Assembly (NCBI GenBank): GCA_944390915.1 | Contig: CALXRS010000004.1 | Coordinates: 1-64,000 of the forward strand | Reading direction: 5' to 3' | Source: an uncultured Alphaproteobacteria bacterium | Lineage (GTDB): Bacteria; Pseudomonadota; Alphaproteobacteria; RF32; CAG-239 | Length of the DNA stretch: 64,000 nucleotides | Shown: in pieces, positions 17,191 to 19,351 of the stretch | How the letters are laid out: each line of letters starts with the position of its first letter | How positions within the stretch are numbered: position 1 is the stretch's first letter | Notes under the pieces: generated by a model | Database searches by the model: none | Seen by the model: only the letters and a program-made list of their open reading frames with translations | What the model was told of the DNA's origin: nothing | Translations under genes and position numbers: made by a program

Positions 17191-17423
17191 ATTAATGAAG
17201 CAAAGCCAAAGTAGCTTTGAAAAGGAAACGCAGGAATGATTTTGTCGAAAGATGAAATTTGCCCACTTCGGATGTTCGGATGAAAGTGTCACACGCAATG
17301 ACCGCCCGCTGCTTTGCAGTATGAGCTACGTGCTTGAGGGATCAATATATAAGTCTGAACGGAAAAAGTAAAATGCGCGGAATTTTTTCAGCCAAAGGTT
17401 TTGCTGCTTTAAATTTATAGTAT

Positions 17424-18269
17424 ATGTACGATTATGAAAATGAGCGTAGAGAACGTTATGAACGTGAAAAAGCTGAAAAAAAGGTACGCGCCGCTAAGAT
17501 CCGCCGCATCGTCGGTTGGAGCATAGGCGGGTTGTTTGTACTGATCTTGTTGTTCAGCTCCATGTATTACATCAGCCCGGGATACCGCGGCGTGTTGGTG
17601 ACCTTGGGAAAGGTAGACCAGCAGAGTCATATCAACGGTATAGGCTTTAAAGTACCGTTTGTGTCGAAGATGTACAAAATGGACGTGCGTACAAAAAAGA
17701 TGACAGAAAAGACCGCAACCTACACATCCGATGTGCAGACTGCGGAAATAGAGTACACTTTTACCTATGATCTCGTGCCCGACAATGTGCATGTATTGTA
17801 CGAAACAGTCGGCAAGGATTATGAGGGAAAGAAACTCATCCCCGTGCTGAACGACGTCTTAAAAGACGTTATAGGCCAGTGGCAGGCACAGGACCTTGTT
17901 TCCAATAGGGATAAGGCTCGTGTCGATGTCGTCGCCGGGTTGCAGGAGCGTCTGGATCGTCGATTCTTCCAGAACATTACGTTTCAATTTATCAACATTG
18001 ATTACTCCGACAAGTTTGAAGGAGCAATTGAAGATAAAGTGATCGCCGAGCAGAAAGCTCAGGAAGCGGTCAATAATACGAAACGTATTCAGGAAGAGGC
18101 AGATCAGAAGGTAATTACCGCCCAGGCTGAGGCTGAAGCTATGGAAATCAAGGCTCAGGCTTTGGCTAAAAACAAGGGGCTGGTAGAATATGAAGCCGTC
18201 CAGAAATGGAATGGCCAGCTTCCTCAGTATATGCTGGGGGAAAGTGTTCCGTTCATTAACCTCAAGTAA
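17424..18269 (+). CDS. SPFH/prohibitin-family membrane protein
   Basis: A 281-residue protein with a basic N-terminal stretch, one transmembrane helix (about residues 31-52), and an SPFH/Band 7 domain (YISPGYRGVLVTLG, through about residue 200). A long Glu/Gln/Ala-rich coiled coil follows (AEQKAQEAVNNTKRIQEEAD) and ends near FINLK. Prohibitin-like proteins form large membrane rings that hold proteases or organise microdomains. There is no Shine-Dalgarno sequence before the ATG. Codon choice (more AAG, GTA, ACA, AGC, GGA) differs from the GGC/GTC/AAA-rich neighbours. Together these suggest transfer, perhaps from Bacteroidota, which is inference. Two strong hairpins follow. Confidence 0.9.
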   Translation: MYDYENERRERYEREKAEKKVRAAKIRRIVGWSIGGLFVLILLFSSMYYISPGYRGVLVTLGKVDQQSHINGIGFKVPFVSKMYKMDVRTKKMTEKTATYTSDVQTAEIEYTFTYDLVPDNVHVLYETVGKDYEGKKLIPVLNDVLKDVIGQWQAQDLVSNRDKARVDVVAGLQERLDRRFFQNITFQFINIDYSDKFEGAIEDKVIAEQKAQEAVNNTKRIQEEADQKVITAQAEAEAMEIKAQALAKNKGLVEYEAVQKWNGQLPQYMLGESVPFINLK

Positions 18270-18288
18270 TTGAGGGAGTACATATTTA

Positions 18289-18319
18289 GAGGGAGTCGCG
18301 AGAGCGACCCCCTCTTTTT
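18289..18319 (+). terminator. Terminator after the SPFH gene
   Basis: GAGGGAGTCGC and GCGACCCCCTC pair over 10 of 11 positions around a GAGA loop, followed by TTTTT. It lies 20 bases past the stop and runs into a second, larger palindrome. Confidence 0.8.
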
Positions 18320-18367
18320 GTACACTGAAAACCCCGCGTCTAACGCGGGGTTTTCAGTGTACAAAAA
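18315..18367. repeat. Perfect 25-bp-arm palindrome
   Basis: The left arm 18315-18339 and right arm 18343-18367 are exact reverse complements over 25 bases with only a CTA loop. The core ACCCCGCG/CGCGGGGT is flanked by AT-rich arms with T5 and A5 ends. On either strand the RNA would form a very stable hairpin ending in a U-run, so it could be a bidirectional terminator or a mobile-element end. It overlaps the terminator tail on its left and the first 205-bp repeat on its right. Confidence 0.8.
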
Positions 18368-18564
18368 AACCTCCCTTTCGGGAGGTCTTTTCGTATTGGA
18401 GCGGGTGAAGGGATGGGGCGCGACAAATGCTTTTGCGCATTTGCTTGCCCCACTGCGCTCATTCGCAGGCTTCAGCCTGCTCACCGGCGTTCTTCCGTCC
18501 GCCTTTCGCTTGTAGTCGAACCCTCTTCCTCGAGGGTTCAAATCCGCATCTCCCACAATTCCAA
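18360..18564. repeat. 205-bp tandem repeat, unit 1
   Basis: First of two near-identical 205-bp units. Read on the minus strand, each unit ends with the last 18 bases of the tRNA-Gly gene including CCA, followed by that tRNA's terminator (CCTCC/GGAGG hairpin plus T-run). The rest holds a hairpin GAACCCTC/GAGGGTTC and a T-loop-like GGTTCAAATCC. It differs from unit 2 at least at one terminator-loop base (C-G-G versus C-T-G). Confidence 0.85.
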
Positions 18565-18769
18565 TACAAAAAAACCTCCCTTTCTGGAGGTCTTTTCGTA
18601 TTGGAGCGGGTGAAGGGATGGGGCGCGACAAATGCTTTTGCGCATTTGCTTGCCCCACTGCGCTCATTCGCAGGCTTCAGCCTGCTCACCGGCGTTCTTC
18701 CGTCCGCCTTTCGCTTGTAGTCGAACCCTCTTCCTCGAGGGTTCAAATCCGCATCTCCCACAATTCCAA
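18565..18769. repeat. 205-bp tandem repeat, unit 2
   Basis: Second unit, in exact 205-bp register with unit 1. It contains the same terminator hairpin, tRNA-Gly 3' end and internal segment. No protein is supported here; the open frames that cross the units repeat with the same period and read through the tRNA fragment. Confidence 0.85.
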
Positions 18770-18824
18770 TACAAAAAAACCTCCCTTTCTGGAGGTCTTT
18801 TCGTATTGGAGCGGGTGAAGGGAT
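18770..18824. repeat. Third, truncated copy of the 205-bp repeat, running into tRNA-Gly
   Basis: The first 55 bases of the unit occur a third time in register, containing the minus-strand terminator and the 3' end of tRNA-Gly. At 18825 the sequence changes from the repeat into the body of the intact tRNA gene. This indicates the repeats arose by duplication from the tRNA 3' end and its terminator. Confidence 0.8.
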
Positions 18825-18881
18825 TCGAACCCTCGACATCAACCTTGGCAAGGTTGCGCTCTACCCCTGAGCTACGCCCGC
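18807..18881 (-). tRNA. tRNA-Gly(GCC)
   Basis: On the minus strand the gene starts GCGGGCGTAGCTCAGGGG and has a 7-bp acceptor stem (GCGGGCG with CACCCGC, one G-A-free wobble-type pair tolerated), a D-arm with TAGCTCAGGGGTAGAGC, and an anticodon arm CAACCTTGCCAAGGTTG with anticodon GCC. The T-arm carries GGTTCGAATCC, and CCA is encoded. It is 75 bases long including CCA. The hairpin at about 18774-18800 is its terminator. Confidence 0.93.
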
Positions 18882-19027
18882 ATCGTGAATGCGAAGTATT
18901 TAATATCATATACAGAAAATATTGCAAGCTTTTTTTATAAAAAAATTTATAAAAATTTACAAACCGGTTTTCTTCTGCTATATTTGAACCGCGATAATGA
19001 TTATTAACATCTTAAAATAATATAATT

Positions 19028-19351
19028 ATGTTCTTGACTTTACATCATTTCAGTCTGAGTCCGCCCGTTTTGTGTCTGTTTGTGGGCGCGTTTGTCGGGG
19101 CGGTTTATGTCGTGATTATTTCTCTTTTGCATCCGTTTTGGGTTCGCCGGCGCATACAGAAGGGAAATTGGCCGCGCTATCGCAGAAGAATGTTTCTGGC
19201 TCGCGCCGGCATGGTTCTTATTTTCAGCGCAACGGCTCTGTCGGCCGTGTATCTGGAAAGTTACAGTTGGCGGCAGACGGCGTTGATTGCGTTGATGATC
19301 GTCCTCTGTCTGCTGGTATATTCCAAGCCTTTTCGCCGTAAGGACAGATGA
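19028..19351 (+). CDS. Small membrane protein of unknown function
   Basis: A 107-residue protein with about three transmembrane segments (near residues 12-34, 55-75 and 83-98) and basic loops (RRRIQKGNWPRYRRR, then KPFRRKDR at the C-terminus). The positive-inside rule puts the first loop and the tail in the cytoplasm. I do not recognise a family. The ATG has no Shine-Dalgarno sequence and is preceded by the AT-rich AATAATATAATT. A terminator follows at once, so it is probably a single-gene unit. Confidence 0.6.
   Translation: MFLTLHHFSLSPPVLCLFVGAFVGAVYVVIISLLHPFWVRRRIQKGNWPRYRRRMFLARAGMVLIFSATALSAVYLESYSWRQTALIALMIVLCLLVYSKPFRRKDR

Follow-up and report, generated by a model that had tools for sequence, protein, structure and literature searches.

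The RtT repeats at tyrT of Escherichia coli have long been regarded as an oddity of one tRNA gene. These 178-bp repeats (RtT RNA, RF00391) are arranged as tandem units that end in a tRNA tail, each composed of an antisense acceptor/T-arm, a sense half T-arm, a core and the tail, and the antisense end pairs with the tail to form P1. In the E. coli tyrT locus, perfect 18-nt tail copies were located at +160, +338 and +516 after tyrV, and the NCBI annotation at the inspected locus describes an RNA processed from the tyrT transcript. RtT-like places were detected in 4695 of 5426 E. coli genomes, with 1 to 14 per genome. Integrative islands and prophages also insert at tRNA 3' ends, restore the tRNA and displace its old tail. 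Casposons target the same end and generate a duplication of 14–15 bp. REP, BIME, REPIN and other non-coding bacterial repeats are short, palindromic, non-autonomous and intergenic.

The repeats analyzed here lie in a 64,000-nt stretch of DNA (the window) from an uncultured alphaproteobacterium. We consider it likely that they represent a family of mobile elements, designated class I, which are short and non-coding and insert at tRNA 3' ends; two copies would stand here in tandem. Class I was present in nearly every genome of one gut Alphaproteobacteria family, behind at least 23 tRNA species. Its units have the RtT layout described above and look like a far more widespread version of the E. 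coli tyrT repeat. They differ from RtT in that the RtT records inspected involve tRNA-Tyr only, compared with 23 tRNA species for class I, and in that no clear terminator hairpin was seen by eye directly after tyrV. Unlike islands and prophages, class I units measure about 185 bp plus the tail, carry no gene, contain antisense copies of the local tRNA, occupy many tRNA species and form tandem arrays. Unlike REP, BIME and REPIN, they keep strictly to one site and strand, 3' of tRNA genes, and the Y1 transposase was absent or broken in the genomes checked. Like casposons they duplicate the tRNA 3' end, but the unit is gene-free, and Cas1 was found in 13 of 48 genomes compared with units in 46 of 48. 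In the accessible parts of the open-licence literature, a scope from which older RtT papers may be missing, we found no account of elements of this kind. The occurrence of the same anatomy at many tRNA genes, in states from empty through tandem to decayed, makes the origin and function of RtT testable.

The array at tRNA-Gly

ARAGORN predicted a single tRNA in the window, tRNA-Gly(GCC), on the minus strand at 18807–18881. Tandem Repeats Finder reported a period of 205 with 2.3 copies and 99% match at 18360–18824, and a repeat search of the window gave two 205-nt copies (18360–18564 and 18565–18769) plus a third copy of 55 nt. These results bear out an earlier note on this DNA, which had described 205-bp tandem repeats with two full units in register, each containing the last 18 bases of tRNA-Gly including CCA. 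Its "third truncated unit" turned out to be the tRNA's own tail and terminator. The intact tRNA-Gly adjoins the repeats as the note had said, but it does not follow them; because it is on the minus strand, the units sit 3' of it, in the order intact tRNA-Gly, two 205-bp units and outer terminator. The features are as follows, all on the minus strand:

18807–18881, minus: intact tRNA-Gly(GCC), host gene of the array (ARAGORN; Rfam tRNA, 65.6 bits)
18769–18806, minus: terminator hairpin of unit 1, directly after CCA (sequence; taken as element-borne by analogy with tRNA-Trp loci)
18602–18760, minus: unit 1, from antisense tRNA end to tail copy (covariance model R1, 127.3 bits)
18735–18750, minus: antisense copy of the tRNA T-arm in unit 1, GGATTTGAACCCTCGA (inverted repeat; local-match test)
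18721–18730, minus: sense 5' T-arm half of unit 1, GAGGGTTCGA, pairing with the antisense copy (sequence; local-match test)
18660–18722, minus: conserved core of unit 1, predicted three-way junction PJ/P3/P4 (R2, 70.9 bits; covariation)
18602–18619, minus: tail copy of unit 1, repeating the final 18 nt of tRNA-Gly, CCA-ended (offset 187, 0 mismatches)
18564–18601, minus: terminator of unit 2 (sequence)
18397–18555, minus: unit 2 (R1, 127.3 bits)
18530–18545, minus: antisense T-arm copy of unit 2 (inverted repeat)
18455–18517, minus: conserved core of unit 2 (R2, 70.9 bits)
18397–18414, minus: tail copy of unit 2, repeating the final 18 nt of tRNA-Gly (offset 392, 0 mismatches)
18360–18396, minus: outer terminator, which comes behind the last tail copy and differs by one base from both inner ones (sequence; repeat search)

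Each unit thus begins with its own terminator, continues with the local tRNA end in antisense and half a T-arm in sense, and closes with a core of approximately 55 nt and the 18-nt tRNA tail; a short purine loop separates the antisense T-arm from the sense 5' half. The inverted repeats at 18530–18545 and 18735–18750 each matched 18821–18836 at 94% (repeat search). The "T-loop-like GGTTCAAATCC" pointed out previously is the T-arm of the tRNA in reverse complement; part of the insert that had been called unrelated repeats the local tRNA end in inverted form. Folded together as RNA, the tRNA and its units gave −276.2 kcal/mol (z = −17.3 against 100 shuffles), a figure to which the repetition itself adds. 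A membrane-associated gene (SPFH/prohibitin-like by eye) at 17421–18270 on the plus strand of the window converges on the array, and a similar gene comes after the tRNA-Ser(CGA) array of genome G032.

Distribution and insertion at tRNA 3' ends

With a single unit as BLAST query, 31 of 33 family genomes matched, that of the window included, compared with 0 of 24 genomes of other families. Covariance model R1, built from 27 units, matched 46 of 48 family genomes at E ≤ 0.01. A search of about 85,000 named species genomes with an exact core pattern gave 36 loci. Every record concerned bears the title uncultured Alphaproteobacteria, Rhodospirillales or Azospirillum sp., and rumen, colon or rectum appears in many of these titles; the group may correspond to GTDB order RF32. 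The unit is therefore neither unique to this locus nor absent from relatives. That the element might be an assembly artefact of a metagenome bin is hardly credible, since, even with several contigs breaking at units (G000 contigs C10 and C2), the same anatomy recurs in 46 of 48 genomes, in the 36 named-assembly loci and in a complete E. coli genome; the exact number of copies in the window is less certain.

The sites were surveyed in the neighbourhoods of R1 hits in five genomes (G000, G024, G029, G067 and G078), where 66 of 69 hits were kept and three weaker than E = 0.01 were dropped. Directly 3' of a same-strand tRNA lay 41 of the 66 units, at a gap of 23–51 nt (median 44) and next to 20 tRNA species. 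Another 15 were further downstream on the strand of the tRNA, and 10 had no ARAGORN tRNA upstream in the fetched flank; for two of these ten (locus L128), an Rfam tRNA was present 47 nt upstream of the first one. With other loci added, 77 units were checked, and all were directly 3' of a same-strand tRNA, which answers positively, for 23 tRNA species, the suggestion that other tRNA genes be inspected for similar tails. Many class I copies were decayed. At five loci (L037, L118, L119, L143 and L144), units were cut at one recurrent point just after hairpin P3, beside other DNA.

Carriage by phages was considered and rejected. The exact pattern had 0 matches in viral_contigs; a looser pattern matched four viral contigs without tRNA, and R1 gave one weak match there (12.9 bits, E = 0.032). 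Three "Bacteriophage sp." records matched by BLAST (MT838727.1, MT837473.1 and MT836861.1; L252–L254) resemble pieces of bacterial chromosome in their content, two of them carrying a tRNA with a unit and the third a unit at its end. Class I had no match in the plasmid collection, in which 27 records had RtT matches; the two inspected were both tyrT loci.

The nature of the insertion could be read from tRNA-Trp, for which 41 of 48 family genomes matched and 30 loci were examined. At six of these loci, the same downstream sequence begins directly after CCA (mutual likeness judged by eye), and five of these six empty loci were used as queries. In five filled loci (G068, G065, G057, G016 and G015), the ancestral DNA resumes 17–18 nt into the last tail copy; the insertion therefore comprises a terminator-bearing unit plus a duplicated 18-nt tRNA end. 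Compared with the empty loci, these filled loci place the insertion point directly after CCA, the unit starting with a terminator and ending with a local 18-nt tail, after which the old downstream sequence resumes. The tRNA beside the unit stays intact. A class I unit was present behind tRNA-Trp in 13 of the 30 loci (the hit at L237 belongs to a neighbouring tRNA and was left out), and empty sites were common in the family. The outer tail copy often had 4–6 mismatches, and at two loci other inserts put the ancestral sequence about 1.2 kb downstream. Among the three sources proposed in the earlier note, a non-autonomous element using tRNA ends fits best: related units follow many different tRNAs across the family (46 of 48 genomes), and what sets a filled tRNA-Trp site apart from an empty one is a unit with a tail copy.

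Other observations concern the surroundings of tRNA-Trp units. In G000, contig C10 has tRNA-Trp as its final feature, and the first part of contig C2 (G000:C2:1–3830, L006) starts inside a unit, after which come an autotransporter-like gene of 922 aa, a unit of Trp type and the sequence otherwise seen downstream of tRNA-Trp; possibly, C10 and C2 hold a gene with a unit on either side, interrupted by a gap in the assembly. Together with genes between units at L115, L122, L144 and L118, this offers a lead toward a cassette array, and a lead only, because the DNA after the first tail copy of L115 begins like other tRNA-Glu downstream DNA. Deletion explains part of the pattern, since units of L037, L119 and L143 are cut after P3 beside other genes. 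The exact first 41 nt of tRNA-Trp occur without the remainder at G017:C1:92556–92596 and G060:C2:1804–1844.

The flanks of the 77 units were compared with local and other tRNAs. The mean score with the local tRNA was 15.29 for the tail, 9.30 for the antisense T-arm and 9.00 for the sense T-arm, against maxima of 6.90, 6.06 and 6.64, respectively, in 200 permutations. The local tRNA was joint best for 70, 56 and 48 of the 77 units, respectively. Related genomes are among the 77 unit–tRNA pairs, which are thus not independent, so that permutation and shuffle counts overstate independence. Unusual T-loops were tracked as well: the tRNA-Ala unit of L159 has GGAATCGAACC and the tRNA-Met unit of L253 reads AACTCGAACC, in both cases as in the tRNA beside it. 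In most units the T-loop part reads GATTTGAAC or GATGAGAAC instead of the exact GATTCGAAC, so this stretch is partly the element's own. Conservation of the core extends over different tRNAs and species, while the antisense end, half T-arm and tail match the local tRNA. Such flanks could result either from copying during insertion or from later selection for pairing. If they are truly copied from the target at insertion, this would be an unusual harmless entry into an essential gene, and one explained by no enzyme found in the carriers checked.

Core structure and relation to RtT

The predicted structure was evaluated on 79 units (78 distinct) in a MAFFT alignment made without structure, with five helices picked from the same alignment. 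In these helices, 85.6% of cells were paired and 22 of 26 pairs had changed on both sides. The 219 double-changed cells compared with a shuffled mean of 57.8 (0 of 500 shuffles reached the observed count), and there were far fewer when the partner was slid; P1 and P2 would covary in any case because both are tRNA-derived. For the core alone (40 units, 39 distinct), all 15 of 15 pairs had changed on both sides, with 55 double-changed cells against 13.1. PJ showed a tandem G.A/A.G in 68 of 78 rows and two Watson–Crick pairs in 8; P4 showed 30 tandem G.A compared with about 46 Watson–Crick or wobble; and the P3 loop was most often GGAA or GGGA. This covariation demonstrates, at the level of the alignment, a predicted three-way junction kept by compensatory changes. 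The unit probably acts at the RNA level. In P3, no G-U pair occurred in 312 cells, which is unusual for RNA, so that the unit may instead have a role as single-stranded DNA. At the gathering score, Rfam reported only tRNA in positions 18000–19200 of the window and in the alphaproteobacterial loci scanned.

P1 of class I was 88.8% paired, and this pairing is also part of the Rfam structure of RtT. Applied to four RtT units, R1 scored 36.1, 25.6, 25.2 and 23.1 bits, and the best score elsewhere in 49 kb of E. coli sequence was 14.6. As a control for tail sharing, R1 was run on loci of classes II and III (described below), where it found only neighbouring class I units and one 11.9-bit match. A 13-letter stretch, AGCGAAAGCGAGA, is common to E. 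coli RtT and L135/L139 (by eye). The core-only model R2 found nothing at E ≤ 10 in enterobacterial loci. The Rfam RtT model had no match up to E = 5 in positions 18000–19200 of the window and none at gathering in L124, L150 and L174, compared with scores of 133–138 for the E. coli units. Class I and RtT share the same anatomy, and a common origin is likely; class I was not filed as RtT because of the negative core-only search.

Possible movement, alternative explanations and further classes

Core comparison over the 77 units revealed no general within-genome excess of likeness: mean identity was 0.683 for different tRNAs of one genome and 0.698 for different genera and tRNAs. Three pairs stood out, namely Ser/Gly in G002 (0.954), Arg(TCT)/Pro(TGG) in G067 (0.935) and Ser/Val in G018 (0.922). 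In the Arg/Pro pair the cores agree, and the T-arm hairpin stems and tails follow each tRNA. Cores for the same tRNA inside one genus had a mean identity of 0.848, and cores also clustered by tRNA, across genera for Ser-CGA and Trp and within one genus for Asn. The tRNA-wise clustering is compatible with long vertical inheritance, and the mixed picture as a whole suggests long residence at one tRNA plus occasional jumps. Class I would spread by jumping between tRNA genes and may act as RNA from tRNA-transcript read-through, as annotated for E. coli RtT. Arrays might grow by renewed insertion or by recombination between tail copies, and the moving enzyme might come from the host or from elements passing through it.

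A different reading of the same data takes the unit as a functional small-RNA gene, processed from the tRNA transcript and vertically inherited, whose ends co-evolve with the local tRNA through pairing. The covarying structure, the anatomy and "processed from tyrT transcript" annotation of RtT, the same-tRNA clustering of Ser-CGA, Asn and Trp cores, and the presence of RtT-like places in most E. coli genomes argue for it. It is nevertheless rather unlikely, given the common empty tRNA-Trp sites, the many degenerate copies, the near-identical cores at different tRNAs of one genome and the variation of E. coli copy number from 1 to 14.

The search for a moving enzyme led to the rejection of several candidates. 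A resident reverse transcriptase, as for a retroelement or SINE-like element, was represented by RVT_1 in 1 of 8 genomes; the Y1 transposase of REP/REPIN was found in 2 of 8, both as partial matches; the IS110 recombinase of bridge-RNA elements exceeded the cut-off in 0 of 8; and a casposon was set aside on the Cas1 count given above. Tyrosine recombinases occurred in 8 of 8 genomes, and a direct repeat of the tRNA 3' end is present at both unit borders, as in tyrosine-integrase elements. A 205-bp unit has no room to encode an integrase, and none was linked to units in the family loci examined. Thus, of the integrase that the earlier note proposed to look for near the copies, the family has tRNA-targeting versions, and none was found tied to units.

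Movement of non-autonomous elements by the tyrosine integrases of islands or phages, with the tail as attachment-site identity, is a version of the reading that we prefer, so that confidence in the two overlaps; taken by itself, we hold it to be possible and about as doubtful as the small-RNA gene. In its favour, several genomes have genes for tyrosine recombinases of about 500–625 aa immediately 3' of a tRNA, namely Gln, Met, Trp, Asn or Gly (L182–L189), and these loci appear to be tRNA-targeting islands recurrent in the family. In G014, a 6.8-kb island lies between tRNA-Met and its old tail with three units; since the island parts them, the array seems older than the island. Against it, R1 had no match inside islands apart from displaced arrays, G024 carries units despite only three tyrosine recombinase matches, and such integrases would not account for local antisense copies at 23 tRNA species.

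Somewhat less probable again is an origin by replication slippage and hairpin template switching, in which the terminator would prime copy-back of the tRNA end and a switch at T-loop microhomology would copy a core taken from a different locus, with no element-specific enzyme. Tail, terminator and antisense copy do form one long inverted repeat, universal T-loop letters flank the core, no resident transposase family was found among those searched (RVT_1, Y1, IS110 and Cas1), and class II cores occur in both orientations. This route would, however, need several exact switches at every tRNA, and it leaves the conserved loop letters and the exchange of G.A with Watson–Crick pairs unexplained. Plain local tandem duplication at tRNA-Gly, suggested by the near identity of the two units, is very improbable and is refuted as a full account, since related units occur after other tRNAs and in 46 of 48 genomes of the family. 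As a partial account, local duplication of a tRNA-3'-end element probably explains the two near-identical copies in the window, which may have arisen in this ordinary way, but not the wider occurrence of the element.

Two further classes keep the frame of class I, in which a core stands between an antisense end and a tail, but have cores unrelated to it. Class II was detected by BLAST in 34 of 48 family genomes, with up to 23 matches per genome (G032). Its core stands in this frame behind tRNAs Arg, Ala, Gly and Ser(GCT) (L174, L181 and L197–L221; e.g., G000:C35:13627–13824), lies in both orientations between inverted flanks, and forms tandem copies without a tRNA in the fetched locus at L202 and L209. 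Class III consists of two tandem units of ~266 bp behind tRNA-Pro(CGG) (L171, G000:C1:981–1600), and its antisense part extends to about tRNA position 44. By eye, the tail copy starts near tRNA position 62 in class II, 49 in class III and 59 in class I, the other border being CCA. Since the three classes share a frame around unrelated cores, we infer that the frame is made by the insertion process. It is tempting to regard all of them, with some reservation and less firmly than the identity of class I itself, as a general class of tRNA-parasitic, RNA-structured mobile elements with at least three unrelated cores (I, II and III), which would copy the sense and antisense 3' end of the target tRNA, each insertion restoring the tRNA and tailoring its own ends; RtT would be one stranded member. 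Another dispersed repeat, GGCTCATCGTCAAA...GGGGCAGGGAGTAAAAAAGTATCATA or similar, was also observed a short distance downstream of tRNA genes, several in G000 and one in G069 (L166, L175, L180 and L250).
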